Below, piece after piece: positions 5,970 to 41,765 of a DNA stretch of 47,206 nt. The translations under genes and the position numbers were made by a program. Source of the stretch: Candidatus Saccharimonadota bacterium (lineage in GTDB: Bacteria > Patescibacteriota > Saccharimonadia > Saccharimonadales > Saccharimonadaceae); assembly GCA_017511685.1 (NCBI GenBank), contig JAFWJE010000020.1, positions 1-47,206 of the forward strand, read 5' to 3'. Below the pieces are notes generated by a model. The model did not search any database. It worked only from the letters and a program-made list of their open reading frames with translations, and was not told where the DNA came from. Position 1 is the stretch's first letter. Every line of letters begins with the position of its first letter.

Positions 5970-5978
5970 GTGAAATAC

Positions 5979-6407
5979 ATGGTTTATATGAACCTTAAAA
6001 TTAAACGATACCCTCATAGAAAAATTGGAAAAATCCGAAAAGAAACAGGACGCAAATTAAGTGATGATGAAAACATGGTCGCAAAATCTTTAGCGCGTTT
6101 TGGCTATGATATGTTGTTTTTAAAAGAGGCTAAGTTAACCAATATGACTAATCCGGATTTCTTTTGGCAAAAGGATCATGCTAATTGGGAAATAAAGACA
6201 TTATATGGTAACAGTAGTAGCAATACTAAACATGCTTTTAGACATGCACTCTCACAATCTAAGAAAATAGTAATAAACGCCATTCGAACAAAGCGTGACA
6301 TAAAAAGAATAGCACAAGACATTCTTGATGCGATGGAGGATTTTCCGTCAATAAGAGGTATAGAGGTTATTATCGTTGACAAAGAGCAATACATAAAAAT
6401 CCCTTAG
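5979..6407 (+). CDS. Orphan PD-(D/E)XK nuclease-like protein, resembling CdiA C-terminal toxin domains
   Basis: A 142-residue basic protein of unknown function. The centre reads NPDFFW followed about ten residues later by WEIKTL, the PD...(D/E)xK layout of this nuclease superfamily. After it come QSKKIVINAI and a terminal IEVIIVDKE strand, as in the C-terminal tRNase domains of contact-dependent inhibition proteins. There is no signal peptide or delivery domain, and no recognisable immunity gene beside it. Possible starts are GTG 5970, ATG 5979 and ATG 5988; 5979 suits the promoter best. The gene lies between direct copies of the dispersed repeat (5900 and 6561). The nuclease call rests on motif reading only. 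Confidence 0.5.
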   Translation: MVYMNLKIKRYPHRKIGKIRKETGRKLSDDENMVAKSLARFGYDMLFLKEAKLTNMTNPDFFWQKDHANWEIKTLYGNSSSNTKHAFRHALSQSKKIVINAIRTKRDIKRIAQDILDAMEDFPSIRGIEVIIVDKEQYIKIP

Positions 6408-7008: not shown

Positions 7009-8703
7009 GTGGCGAGTAAAATTTTTGAACAGATTTTGAGGAAAAGGGGGTTTGACTCTGGGTTTTTGGAGCCTAAATACGAGAAACTTTCTGAGGTAGC
7101 GGCGGGTTTGCCAGATGTTTTTAAAGCGGTGGAGCGGATTTTGGCGGCACGAGATAAGGGAGAGAAGGTGCTGATTTATGGCGACTACGATGTAGATGGG
7201 GTGACGGCGACGGCGATCATCAGGGAGACTTTAGGGTTGATTGGTTTTGATGCGGCGCAGGTTCTGATGATGTTGCCGGATAGGTTTACGGATGGATACG
7301 GGATGAGTGCGCGGCTAGTGGAGCGGGCGCGAACAGAGGGAGTGCGGCTAGTGGTGACGGTAGACTGTGGATCTAACAATGCGGAGATTATAGAGGCGCT
7401 CCTCGCGGACGGGATAGAAACGGTAGTAACGGATCATCACGAACTTTCTCATGAAGTGCCCGGTGCGGCGGTGGCAGTGGTCAATCCAAAGCGGCCGGAT
7501 TTTCGGAAAGAGGTATTGGCGCGGCAGGCGGCGGTACTTGAAAAAGAGAGCGCGGCGGCCGGTGAGGTGGCGGCGGCTGGTGAGCTGGCGTCGTTGGCAG
7601 ATTTGTCAGGGGCGGGAGTGGCGTTTTGCTTGGCTCTAGTGTTAGGTAATAGGGGTGAGATTGCTGCCGGGCAAGAAAAGTGGTTGCTAGATTTGGCGGC
7701 GATTGGGACGATGTGCGATGCGATGCCGATAGCGACTTTTGCGAACCGGATAATCTGTTATTTTGGAATGATAGTGCTTTCTAAGACGCGGCGAGCGGGG
7801 CTACTTGCGCTGATGCGGGCGGCTAAGACTCGAAAAATCACCTCTGAGGCGGTGGGGTTTCAGATAGGGCCACGGCTGAATGCGGCTGGACGGATGGAAA
7901 CGGCGGAGCTGGCGCTTAAACTGCTTTTGACGCAGTCGAAGGCGGAGGCGGAGGATTTAGCGCAGAAGTTAGAGCTGCTTAATAGGGAACGAAAGAAGCA
8001 GCAACAAACGGCCATAGCAGAGGTGGCGCAGCGGGGAGTATCTAGTAAGCCGGTGATAGTAGTAAAAGGCGATTGGCATGAGGGGGTGCTAGGGATTATT
8101 GCGGGCAAATTGACAGAAGCGTACCGGAAGCCGAGTTTTGTACTAACAGAGGTGGGGGAGGTTTTAAAGGGTAGCGGGCGGAGCTTTGGAGAGTATAATT
8201 TAGCACTAGCATTGTCCGAGTGCCAAGATTTGATAGTTTCCGGGGGCGGACACGCGGCGGCGGCGGGAGTAAAGTTAGAAAAAGGGCATTTTGAGGAGTT
8301 TTGCAAGAGACTAAATGATTATTATGCTCGATTAAAATTGACTGACCAAGAGCGGTTTTTGTCACGCGAGGTAGACATGGCGATAGATGATTTGTCAGAG
8401 TTGTCGCTTGATTTAGTAGACTCTTTGAGACAATTAGAGCCTTATGGGGAGGGAAATCTGGTGCCGGCGTTTTTATTAACGGATGTGTTAGTACTGGATG
8501 TATCTAAGATGGGAGAATCAGATCAGCATCTAAGAATGCTGGTGACGGACGGAAAAAACAATATGAAGCTAGTAGCATTTTATGCGAATAAAGATTGGTT
8601 CTTAGTGCGGCCTGGAGAGAGGATAAATATAGTGGTGGAGTTGTTGGAAAACGAATGGCAAGGAACACGGAGTGTGGAGGGGAGAATTGTAGAAATAAGA
8701 TAG
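7009..8703 (+). CDS. recJ: Single-stranded-DNA exonuclease RecJ
   Basis: A 5'-3' ssDNA exonuclease for recombination and mismatch repair. DHH motifs: LIYGDYDVDGVTAT (motif I), VTVDCGSN (II), VVTDHHEL (III, the DHH), then the DHHA1 domain with SGGGHAAAAGV, and a C-terminal OB-like region from about 450. 564 residues, normal. The GTG start at 7009 is preceded by AAGGAGGAGG. An Ala/Glu-rich insert around residues 175-200 sits between the DHH motifs and is the only unusual part. It ends at a bidirectional terminator facing rpsU. Confidence 0.95.
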   Translation: MASKIFEQILRKRGFDSGFLEPKYEKLSEVAAGLPDVFKAVERILAARDKGEKVLIYGDYDVDGVTATAIIRETLGLIGFDAAQVLMMLPDRFTDGYGMSARLVERARTEGVRLVVTVDCGSNNAEIIEALLADGIETVVTDHHELSHEVPGAAVAVVNPKRPDFRKEVLARQAAVLEKESAAAGEVAAAGELASLADLSGAGVAFCLALVLGNRGEIAAGQEKWLLDLAAIGTMCDAMPIATFANRIICYFGMIVLSKTRRAGLLALMRAAKTRKITSEAVGFQIGPRLNAAGRMETAELALKLLLTQSKAEAEDLAQKLELLNRERKKQQQTAIAEVAQRGVSSKPVIVVKGDWHEGVLGIIAGKLTEAYRKPSFVLTEVGEVLKGSGRSFGEYNLALALSECQDLIVSGGGHAAAAGVKLEKGHFEEFCKRLNDYYARLKLTDQERFLSREVDMAIDDLSELSLDLVDSLRQLEPYGEGNLVPAFLLTDVLVLDVSKMGESDQHLRMLVTDGKNNMKLVAFYANKDWFLVRPGERINIVVELLENEWQGTRSVEGRIVEIR

Positions 8704-12426: not shown

Positions 12427-13689
12427 ATGCCCGAAATAAAGCCAACAGAGGTGGAAAGCACAGCAAGTATCAAAGTCGTCGGTGTCGGTGGCGCTGGTGG
12501 TTCTGCTGTGGACCGGATGAAAGAGGTCGGTCTAAATGGAGTAGAGTTTGTGGCGGTGAATACCGATGCGCAGGCTTTGTATCATTCTGCAGCAGATAAT
12601 AAAGTTCATATCGGTAAGGGGTTAGGTGCCGGTGGTGATCCAGAGAAAGGTCGCGAAGCTGCCGAAGAAAGCCGCGAAAATATCGGTAAGGCCCTAGAGG
12701 GTGCAGATATGGTGTTTATTACCTTAGGTGCTGGTGGTGGTACTGGTTCTGGTGCTGGTCCAATCGTGGCACAAGAGGCGCATGATAGGGATATTTTGAC
12801 CGTAGGTGTGGTAACGCGTCCGTTCTCATTTGAGGGGCCGGTGCGGAAAGAAAACGCTGAGGTGGCGATTGAGAAATTGACCCACGAAGTAGATGCGTTG
12901 ATTACCATTCCAAATGATAGGTTGCTTCAGACTATTGATCCTCGTACACCTTTACTAGAAACCTTTAAGATCGCTGATGATGTGTTGCGCCAAGGCGTTC
13001 AGGGTATCTCTGAGCTGATTACTGAACACTCTTTGATTAACTTGGACTTTGCCGACGTGAAAGCTATTATGAAAAACGCTGGTTCGGCGTTGATGGGTAT
13101 TGGTCGGGCCTCTGGTGAAAACCGGGCAGTGTTGGCCGCGCAACAGGCAATTGAATCGCCTCTGATTGAGGTAAAGATTGAGGGTGCGCGTGGTGTACTG
13201 TTCTCAGTAGCTGGTGGCTATGATATGAGTATGTCAGAAATCCAAGAGGCGGCTGAGGTGATTACTTCGGCGGTGGCGCCGGATGCCAACATTATCTTTG
13301 GCGCGTCAATTCGTCCAGAGCTAGAAGACGAAATCGTGATCACTGTAGTAGCAACTGGTTTTGATTCTGATTATTATAAAGAATTAGACCGCAAAGCAGC
13401 TGAGGAGGCTCGGGCGGCAGAGATTTCTGCGGCCGCGAAGGTTGATTCAGGCGAAGATAAGGTTGCTGATGAAGAAGCAAAGAGTGATACGGTGATAGAG
13501 AATGATACTGGCGCTAGAGTGGATTTACATGATTTGGACGAAAAACAGCCGATAGCATCCCAAGAGGAATTTGCCGCTGAGAATAAGAGCAATATGTGGG
13601 ATTCTATCAGATCTGAGGACGCCGAGGAGGACTTGGATGTACCACCTTCTCTGAGAGCGCGGCTAAAGAGACACAGGAACAAGGAATAG
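12427..13689 (+). CDS. ftsZ: Cell division GTPase FtsZ
   Basis: Tubulin homologue forming the Z ring. 420 residues. GTP-binding loop [12 protein letters not shown] near the N-terminus, tubulin signature [13 protein letters not shown] (about 100-112), and T7 synergy loop [11 protein letters not shown]. An acidic, Ala/Asp/Glu-rich linker (about 320-395) leads to the C-terminal peptide [14 protein letters not shown], which matches the D(I/V)PxFLR tail that binds FtsA. Codon use is more balanced than in neighbours, consistent with high expression. CIRCE begins 6 nt after the stop codon. Confidence 0.97.
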
Positions 13690-13694
13690 ATTTA

Positions 13695-13721
13695 TTAGCA
13701 CTCTCCAAGTGAGAGTGCTAA
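13695..13721 (+). promoter_or_regulatory. Perfect CIRCE operator (HrcA binding site)
   Basis: TTAGCACTC (13695-13703), nine-base spacer, GAGTGCTAA (13713-13721): an exact 9-9-9 match to the CIRCE consensus bound by the heat-shock repressor HrcA. It normally controls groESL, dnaK or hrcA. Here it sits between ftsZ and nrdR, 41 nt before the nrdR GTG. No strong promoter boxes are obvious next to it. Confidence 0.9.
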
Positions 13722-13762
13722 TGCTTATAAGGGTGGCGCAAAAAAGCAAAAGCGAGGTAAAA

Positions 13763-14230
13763 GTGAGGGGAATAAAGATAGGTGATAGTAAAGTTCTAGA
13801 AAGTCGCGAGACTGCGGATGGGATGATTCGGCGGCGACGGATTTCCTCAGATGGGAAACATCGGTTTACTACTTATGAGCGGATAGAATTACCGCCAATA
13901 ATGGTGCGGAAGCGGAGTGGTAATAAGGAGGAATTTGACAGAGATAAGTTGATAGCCTCAGTAAGACGGAGCGTGGGGAAGTTCTTTTCGTCTTCTCTAG
14001 AAGTGGAGCAGGTAGTAGATCAAGTAACAGAGCGGATTTATGAACTAGGAGTGGAGGAGGTAACTTCTAGGCAGATTGGGCAGATTACTTTGGATGTTTT
14101 GGCAGAGGTGAATGAGGTGGCGTACGTGCGGTTTGCGAGTGTGTTTCAGGAGTTTACGACTTTGTCGGAGTTTGAGCAGATTATCAAGGAACAGAAGGAA
14201 AAGAAGGCTGCAGGTAAGTTGCGGGGGTAG
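13763..14230 (+). CDS. nrdR: NrdR-like transcriptional regulator with ATP-cone and degenerate zinc ribbon
   Basis: NrdR represses ribonucleotide reductase genes when its ATP-cone binds dATP. The GTG start at 13763 follows GCGAGGTAAAA and gives 155 residues, the usual length; a reading from 13709 would begin inside CIRCE. Residues 1-45 align with the NrdR ribbon (DSKVLESR, IRRRR, RFTTYERIELPPIMVRKR). The four cysteines are all replaced: the first pair by VRGIKIG and the second by RISSDGKHR. The ATP-cone (about 46-140) is intact (KRSGNKEEFDRDKLIASVRR, RQIGQITLDVLAEVNEVAYVR split over 21 residues). The DNA-binding mode must therefore differ from the classical one. Confidence 0.85.
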   Translation: MRGIKIGDSKVLESRETADGMIRRRRISSDGKHRFTTYERIELPPIMVRKRSGNKEEFDRDKLIASVRRSVGKFFSSSLEVEQVVDQVTERIYELGVEEVTSRQIGQITLDVLAEVNEVAYVRFASVFQEFTTLSEFEQIIKEQKEKKAAGKLRG

Positions 14231-14286
14231 TTGTGGAGCCGTTGGCTGCTGGCGTGCTGGCTGGCGCCCTGGCGCGACAAAAGTGC

Positions 14287-14315
14287 TTGCGGTTTTTTGA
14301 TGGTTGACGTAAAAT
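14287..14315 (+). promoter_or_regulatory. Promoter of the thioredoxin-fold gene
   Basis: TTGCGG (14287-14292), 17-nt spacer, TAAAAT (14310-14315), then 6 nt to the ATG at 14322. Confidence 0.55.
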
Positions 14316-14321
14316 AAGTTT

Positions 14322-14588
14322 ATGAAATTGACGATACTTTGGAACGAGCAAACAGATTATGCGCGCGAGGTGCGCGATTGGAAGCGCGATTATATCGCGG
14401 ATACAGGGAGCGATGCGATAATTGATCTGGACCCGGAAACGGTAGCCGGAGAGAGGTTTGCGGCGCTGTATGATATTTTACAATATCCGGCGGTGGTGGT
14501 AACAGATGATGATGGACGACTGATGAATATATGGAAGGGAACGCCGATGCCACAGATTGATGAAGTGTCTTATTTTGCAAATAAGTAG
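14322..14588 (+). CDS. Small thioredoxin-fold protein without CxxC
   Basis: 88 residues. The pattern MKLTILWNE (strand), a helix, IDLDPET (strand), then LYDILQYPAVVVTDDDGRL with the cis-Pro before the strand, and IWKGTPMPQIDEVSYF, is that of a small thioredoxin/glutaredoxin fold. There is no cysteine at all in the protein, so it cannot be a thiol redox enzyme. More likely a binding or structural role. Converges on ileS with a 9-nt gap. Function unknown. Confidence 0.55.
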   Translation: MKLTILWNEQTDYAREVRDWKRDYIADTGSDAIIDLDPETVAGERFAALYDILQYPAVVVTDDDGRLMNIWKGTPMPQIDEVSYFANK

Positions 14589-40034: not shown

Positions 40035-41765
40035 ATGGATAAACGCACAAAAGCGCTCCGGATTATTTTGGTGGCGGCAGTCGCACTGGTTTTGGTGCGG
40101 CTATTTGTGATACAGATTTTTGAGCACGATATGTGGGTGGAGCGGGCAGAGCAAGAGCACGTGGTTCAATATACCATCCCGGCGGAGCGGGGCGAAATCT
40201 ACATGATGGACGGGGGAGAACCGACGGTGGTAGTGATGAATGAAGCAGTATGGACGGTGATTGTGGACCCGATGACGGTGGATGAAGAAGCGACAAAAAA
40301 GCTGATGGATGAGGTGGCCAAGGATAAGTTGGTGGCGGAGTGGAAAGATGTTTTTGCCGATAAGACGCGGCGGTATTATATCGTGGCGCAAGGAGTAAAG
40401 CGAGACGCGGCTCAGAAAATTCGCGAGGCGGGACTTACGGGCGTGTACTTAAAAGAGGGGAATGCGCGGGTGTATCCGGAGGGGGAGTTGGCATCGTCGC
40501 TGCTTGGATTTGTAAACAATGAAGGTGCGGGGCAATATGGAGTGGAGCAGGCGCTTAATAAAGATTTGGCCGGTGAAAACGGGGTACTAAAAACTGTGAC
40601 GGATGTGAACAATGTGGCGCTATCAATCGGCGACGACAACGTGCGAGTGCCGGCAAAAAACGGCAAAGACGTCGTGCTATCGGTGGACAGAAACATCCAG
40701 CGCAGATTGGAGCAGATTTTGGCCGAGGCGGTGGCGGGTTCGGCGGCGACGAATGCGGCGGGAGTTGTAATGGATCCAATGACGGGTGAGATTTGGGCAC
40801 TGGCTAACGTGCCAACCTATGATGCGACGAAATACAGCGAGATTAAAGATGCGTCAGTATTTGTAAATACGCCACTAGAAAGCGCATACGAGCCGGGCTC
40901 AATGTGCAAGACTTTTTCATTTGCGGCGGCCATAGATCAGGGCAAGATGACACCGGCGACGACTTATACTAATAACGGATATTTAACGGTGGATAACTGG
41001 AAAATTGAAAACGCGTACAAGGGGCAGCTGGGGACGATTACGATGCAGACGGGGCTGGACTATTCGCTGAATACTAGCTCAATGACGGCGTTGATGCTGC
41101 TGGGTGATGACGCCTCGCAGATTACCCAGAAAGGCAAAAATAAATTATATGAATATTATCACGATAAGTTTGGGTTTGGCGAATATACGGACATTGAACT
41201 GGTGGAGGCGAAGGGTTATTTGACGGAACCGGATGCGGAGGATGCGTATAATTCACGCTATGCTAATATGACTTTTGGGCAAGGTATGAACATTACGATG
41301 ATACAGCTGGCTGCGGCGTTTTCTAGCGTGATAAATGGCGGAGAATACTATCGACCGACGGTGGTGGCGGGCGAAATGCTGGAAAATGGAACGTTCAATT
41401 ACTTACAAGCGCCGGAGGCGGTGCGGCAGACGGTGTCGAAGGCGACGTCGGATACGATGCGACAGATGCTATACGGGACGCGGTCGTACAAGCGGACAAC
41501 TGGTGTGGACAAGCCGGGATATTACATCGGCGGCAAGACTGGGACATCGCAGGGGATTAAAGATGGGGCCTATACCTTTGATGAAACAGTGGGAAACTAT
41601 GTTGGATTTGGCGGGGCTACAAAGGAAAGCCCAAAGTATGTTATAATGGTAAAGATATGGGGGGACAACGCCAAAATGGAAGGCGAAAAAGACGCTATGC
41701 CAATGTTCGATAAAATGAGTGATTATATGATAGATTATCTAAAAATTAAACCAGGAGAAAGTTAA
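40035..41765 (+). CDS. ftsI: Class B penicillin-binding protein, division transpeptidase (FtsI/PBP3-like)
   Basis: 576 residues. One N-terminal TM helix (about 8-28), a PBP dimer/pedestal domain (about 45-190, IPAERGEIYMMDGG), and a transpeptidase domain with the three active-site motifs: SMCK in EPGSMCKTFSFA (SxxK), SLN in YSLNTSSM (SxN) and KTG in GGKTGTSQG. Cross-links septal peptidoglycan with FtsW as partner. The position in the dcw cluster favours FtsI over elongation PBP2. No PASTA domains. Overlaps mraY by one base (TAATG). Confidence 0.92.
   Translation: MDKRTKALRIILVAAVALVLVRLFVIQIFEHDMWVERAEQEHVVQYTIPAERGEIYMMDGGEPTVVVMNEAVWTVIVDPMTVDEEATKKLMDEVAKDKLVAEWKDVFADKTRRYYIVAQGVKRDAAQKIREAGLTGVYLKEGNARVYPEGELASSLLGFVNNEGAGQYGVEQALNKDLAGENGVLKTVTDVNNVALSIGDDNVRVPAKNGKDVVLSVDRNIQRRLEQILAEAVAGSAATNAAGVVMDPMTGEIWALANVPTYDATKYSEIKDASVFVNTPLESAYEPGSMCKTFSFAAAIDQGKMTPATTYTNNGYLTVDNWKIENAYKGQLGTITMQTGLDYSLNTSSMTALMLLGDDASQITQKGKNKLYEYYHDKFGFGEYTDIELVEAKGYLTEPDAEDAYNSRYANMTFGQGMNITMIQLAAAFSSVINGGEYYRPTVVAGEMLENGTFNYLQAPEAVRQTVSKATSDTMRQMLYGTRSYKRTTGVDKPGYYIGGKTGTSQGIKDGAYTFDETVGNYVGFGGATKESPKYVIMVKIWGDNAKMEGEKDAMPMFDKMSDYMIDYLKIKPGES

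Follow-up and report, generated by a model that had tools for sequence, protein, structure and literature searches.

Why should a CIRCE element, the operator of the repressor HrcA, lie between ftsZ and nrdR? The question is raised by a DNA stretch of 47,206 nucleotides, here called the window, which is contig C11 of a Saccharibacteria genome of 524,474 bases rated 77.9% complete. The best named match to the NrdR encoded here (95% identity) belongs to an uncultured Candidatus Saccharibacteria bacterium, and many further matches bear ruminant-gut sample names.

A pattern scan of the window yields the CIRCE TTAGCACTCTCCAAGTGAGAGTGCTAA with 0 mismatches at positions 13695-13721 of the plus strand, exactly where it had been predicted. 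Its arms, which enclose the spacer TCCAAGTGA, agree with the consensus TTAGCACTC-N9-GAGTGCTAA, as given in PMC3842655, at 18 of 18 bases. The upstream operon gene is ftsZ (12427-13689, plus strand; Pfam Tubulin 157.3 bits, FtsZ_C 115.8 bits), whose stop codon TAG at 13687-13689 leaves a gap of 5 nt to the CIRCE and not of 6 nt, as first stated. The downstream gene and presumed target is nrdR (13763-14230, plus strand; Pfam ATP-cone 59.6 bits, Zn_ribbon_NrdR 37 bits), so that both flanking genes named in the original prediction are upheld by Pfam. The likely nrdR start is the GTG at 13763, 41 nt from the CIRCE end in agreement with the distance first given. It lies behind a probable Shine-Dalgarno sequence GAGG (13754-13757, plus strand), read in the sequence, which has an equivalent GAGG in the site-bearing relatives. 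An in-frame ATG at 13721, overlapping the last base of the CIRCE, is an alternative start; we prefer the GTG because the relatives start at the position equivalent to 13763. Downstream of nrdR an ORF of 88 amino acids on the same strand (14322-14588), possibly the next operon gene, has no Pfam match. Elsewhere in the window, an ORF of 145 amino acids (5970-6407) weakly matches the toxin-domain family CdiA_C (27.3 bits, cut-off 26.6).

The corresponding repressor is encoded in the same genome. The hrcA gene (G000:C2:625-1407, minus strand) is followed by grpE, and both HrcA domains, the DNA-binding and the C-terminal one, score above cut-off (PF01628 76.1 bits, PF03444 27.9 bits). A listing of CIRCEs, proposed together with the original prediction, shows further elements in this genome at groES-groEL and before a clpC-like gene (1 mismatch each) as well as at hrcA (3 mismatches), besides the one at the ftsZ-nrdR junction. 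CIRCEs at dnaK and dnaJ are found in relatives, while none was seen at these genes in the present, incomplete genome. In a search of 119 genomes of relatives, HrcA scores above cut-off in 106 and at least one CIRCE with at most 2 mismatches occurs in all 119, whereas the reversed control pattern gives one match each in only 2 of the 119. Members of this order generally use CIRCE. Some further CIRCE-like matches were set aside. The match at position 8200 of the window (2 mismatches) lies inside the recJ coding sequence and is not taken as an operator; since a recJ-internal match is present in the relative G019, too, we read it as coding conservation. The CIRCE-like matches inside ileS in loci L012 and L224 (ileS named by eye) are treated as coding matches, and so is the one at G000:C13:280 (3 mismatches), which straddles the beginning of an unrelated ORF on a contig of 3.9 kb. 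By eye, the ORFs and composition of this contig (L009, 3871 bases) are unlike the rest of the genome, and it is possibly a contaminant or a mobile element.

To assess conservation, we read the nrdR loci of related genomes. A CIRCE precedes nrdR in 4 of 80 named loci (0, 1, 0 and 0 mismatches), 61-91 nt upstream of the nrdR match; the remaining loci show 6-mismatch noise only (3/80) or no match (73/80). At the level of the genus, the element is carried by 5 of 30 nrdR loci, which comprise the window and members of higher NrdR identity. When copies of the same genome are counted once, seven distinct site-bearing lineages remain: the window, L010/G033, L012, L013, L014/G019, L124/G030 and L126/G021. 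Among the matches listed for the order-level genomes, whose positions were compared by eye, there is no CIRCE near nrdR. Whereas the spacers of the seven sites all differ, the arms agree with the consensus at 18 of 18 bases in five lineages and at 17 of 18 in two. Synonymous third positions of ftsZ (shared codon boxes) are 36-51% identical among the six of these lineages in which the gene is complete, G019/L014 with its cut ftsZ being left out. Exact arms despite such divergence point to a sequence-specific binder, as a hairpin maintained by pairing only would let the arms drift. One concern attached to the original prediction was that the genome might lack hrcA and the position might lack conservation; in fact hrcA is present and the element is kept in one clade. 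We consider it very probable that the junction element is an HrcA operator.

How this operator would act is less clear-cut. The site lacks a recognisable promoter of the kind that accompanies other CIRCEs. In five genomes, 22 of 22 CIRCEs at chaperone promoters show a -35/-10 pair scoring 9-12 of 12, with the -35 lying within the CIRCE spacer or straddling it. At the seven nrdR sites the score is 7-8 of 12, the level given by the CIRCE arms alone. (These counts leave out the recJ- and ileS-internal matches, G000:C13:280 and the hrcA CIRCE of G019 at G019:C40:38294.) A stricter scan of 187 nt about each nrdR site, covering the sigma-70-type consensus only, finds no promoter-like pair at any of the seven, while it does find one at 5 of 5 chaperone controls; a sigma-70-type consensus scan likewise finds none within 13300-14400 of the window. 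An overlap with a promoter, as seen at chaperone CIRCEs, is thus not recognisable at the junction site, whose downstream gene is nrdR. The only similar promoterless sites are second CIRCEs at dnaK, which occur in four relatives (L211, L218, L223 and L229, in G033, G021, G030 and G019, respectively) 49 bp downstream of the promoter CIRCE, between the promoter and the start codon. They provide a precedent for a non-promoter site. We favor, with about equal measures of belief and doubt, a reading in which HrcA bound within the operon would act as a roadblock, impeding polymerase on its way from ftsZ into nrdR until it is released by proteotoxic stress; an RNA role may add to it.

Several other readings have to be weighed against this roadblock. 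The junction site could be an HrcA operator of the usual kind, covering an internal nrdR promoter that is weak or departs from the consensus, and initiation would be blocked there as it is at groESL. CIRCEs elsewhere in these genomes do cover promoters, and in the window a TATAAG follows a few bases 3' of the site, but the low scores, for which the arms alone suffice, the failure of the stricter scan at all seven sites and the lack of conservation among the nrdR sites in the sequences 3' of the element make such a promoter rather unlikely.

We hold it to be similarly improbable that the element works mainly as RNA, with a hairpin that limits nrdR read-through or shields the ftsZ message at its 3' end and with HrcA binding secondary or absent. 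A read-through transcript could indeed form a hairpin at 13694-13722 (plus strand) with a 12-bp stem (13694-13705 pairing with 13711-13722) and a loop at 13706-13710, and the RNA fold of 13680-13765 reaches -20.8 kcal/mol (z -2.27 against shuffles). In addition, 14 of 21 spacer positions form Watson-Crick pairs at the nrdR sites compared to 19 of 78 at the 26 remaining CIRCEs (p 0.0015 by permutation, without regard to kinship), and both arm changes, in L012 and G021, retain a G-U pair. At the same place in the junction, L011/G071, which has no CIRCE, carries an unrelated strong hairpin (-21.2 kcal/mol) followed by TTTT, and this, too, speaks for an RNA element. It is, however, the only hairpin with a T-run: in the window no T-run follows the hairpin, no intrinsic terminator is flagged in 13300-14400, and an intrinsic terminator, taken as a G+C-rich stem plus T-run, was rejected. 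Stability alone does not single out the nrdR sites either, since their stems reach -14.0 to -18.4 kcal/mol and a dnaK promoter CIRCE folds nearly as well at -17.0 kcal/mol. Moreover, a search of 13400-14400 against Rfam gives nothing at E up to 1, and pairing alone would not hold the arms at 17-18 of 18 bases across seven diverged lineages.

The original prediction had also offered that the site marks a former chaperone locus. In a tree of FtsZ and NrdR with 84 rows, all seven site-bearing lineages fall within one clade of 9 rows (SH-aLRT 99), and the fewest site changes on the tree are 2, compared to 6.9 with shuffled labels (quick method). Two of the 9 rows, L011/G071 and L125/G032, are without the CIRCE. 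Relatives lacking the site also have ftsZ directly 5' of nrdR, in most cases with a short junction of about 9-38 nt to the start of the nrdR match (exceptions: L017 with 53 nt, L064 with 84 nt and L072 with 92 nt). On this tree, the CIRCE appears as a late acquisition of a single Saccharibacteria clade, within an ftsZ-nrdR operon that is itself old. A former chaperone locus was rejected on these grounds, the gene order being independent of the site and the CIRCE being nested in the tree. Although the site has been lost from two rows of the clade, a relic of this kind or a functionless CIRCE copy is very improbable, as the arms have been kept under near-saturated synonymous divergence. A chance match deserves practically no credence: imperfect matches with 2-3 mismatches do arise inside coding sequence, but only 0.01 matches with at most 3 mismatches are expected per window (mean of dinucleotide shuffles), and the recurrence of the element at this position in seven lineages refutes it.

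NrdR represses ribonucleotide reductase operons via two boxes, as described in PMC12176259 and PMC12051234. In the present genome this enzyme is of the anaerobic class III (NRDD 652.9 bits). Of 11 genomes searched, 10 have NRDD, while PF02867 (class I/II ribonucleotide reductase) has no match in this genome or in 6 relatives. Upstream of nrdD, pairs of palindromes resembling what we take to be the NrdR-box consensus, for example ACACTATATATAGTGT and ACACTAAATATAGCGT, were found by eye at 7 of 8 loci, with about 16-17 bp between the two boxes and the first box adjoining a TTGACA. At the eighth locus, L205, the inspected stretch contains the first box only; the second would lie beyond it. In published tests, box spacers of 14-17 bp allow binding (PMC12051234). 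Both the ATP-cone and paired boxes at a ribonucleotide reductase operon, by which we assign the protein to NrdR, are thus found.

According to PMC12176259, the N-terminal Zn-ribbon of NrdR carries two CxxC motifs. The N-terminal part of the protein contains no C..C at all, neither in the window nor in any of 83 loci (L010-L089 and L124-L126), and in the window NrdR this cysteine-less region still matches PF22811 above cut-off. It is apparently an NrdR without metal, which may still bind the boxes at nrdD. The box pairs upstream of nrdD render a route from HrcA via NrdR to the anaerobic ribonucleotide reductase plausible. G021, in turn, counts against this route, since it has the nrdR CIRCE and no match to either NRDD or PF02867 although it is rated 96% complete. 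The connection between HrcA and ribonucleotide reductase that was originally proposed gains support from the box pairs; the original prediction as a whole is borne out in part. In two relatives, the NRDD match ends at profile position 529, and a separate small ORF 35-40 kb away matches positions 532-562 (G036:C5:2000-3772 and 40860-40958, L207/L209; G003:C6:101264-103039 and 65499-65597, L208/L210). In G036 and G003 the C-terminal end of the anaerobic enzyme may thus be encoded by a gene of its own.

Taken together, the roadblock reading would proceed as follows. In the unstressed cell, active HrcA on the CIRCE would hinder the polymerase reading from ftsZ into nrdR, keeping nrdR low. Once unfolded proteins occupy GroEL, HrcA would leave the CIRCE and nrdR would rise along with the chaperones. 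NrdR would then repress nrdD, and dNTP synthesis would be lowered while proteins are damaged. GroE-dependent activity of HrcA is described for other bacteria (PMC8045354) and is assumed here for this clade; HrcA binding at the junction, its action as a roadblock and the sense in which nrdR responds are what we infer. Against the roadblock weigh the additional spacer pairing, which hints at an added or different RNA role, the two clade rows that lack the CIRCE, and G021 with its site but no NRDD or PF02867 match. Only tentatively can the pairing be accommodated in a two-level switch, arisen once in one clade, in which an HrcA roadblock on the DNA and a read-through-limiting hairpin in the RNA would together tie nrdR to ftsZ transcription and chaperone load, so that protein damage would slow dNTP supply. 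Overall, this suggests that stress from protein damage controls nucleotide production in the site-bearing clade.

While the operator as such is already known, its nrdR target and its position within an operon appear to be new. In the open-licence literature we found no report of an HrcA roadblock, of a CIRCE at nrdR or of work on HrcA in Saccharibacteria. If the proposed reading holds, a second repressor comes under the control of HrcA and, via NrdR, so does the synthesis of DNA precursors, and HrcA would have to stop an elongating polymerase instead of an initiating one. Very small genomes would then possess a direct link between protein-folding stress and DNA synthesis, for which close relatives with and without the CIRCE offer a natural control.

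HrcA acting outside the chaperone set has a parallel in Waddlia chondrophila, where it bound a CIRCE-like motif; the accessory targets named in the pertinent part of PMC4989314 are promoters, and neither nrdR nor ftsZ is among them. With the class I heat-shock CIRCEs of groESL, dnaK and hrcA operons, the junction site shares identical arms, the 9-base spacer length and an encoded HrcA. It differs from them in lying between two genes of a division and nucleotide operon, in having neither a -35 in its spacer nor a recognisable promoter, and in having as target a repressor gene and no chaperone. Comparable, too, are the second dnaK CIRCEs of relatives in the same genus, which are also without a promoter of their own and lie downstream of a transcription start. 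Unlike the junction site, they merely supplement a promoter CIRCE 49 bp upstream, and in 3 of 4 cases their spacer does not extend the hairpin, as the spacers of the nrdR sites tend to do. Operators within operons can act as transcription roadblocks, for example in LacI- or CodY-type cases. Like these, the junction operator is placed in the path of the polymerase without a promoter of its own.
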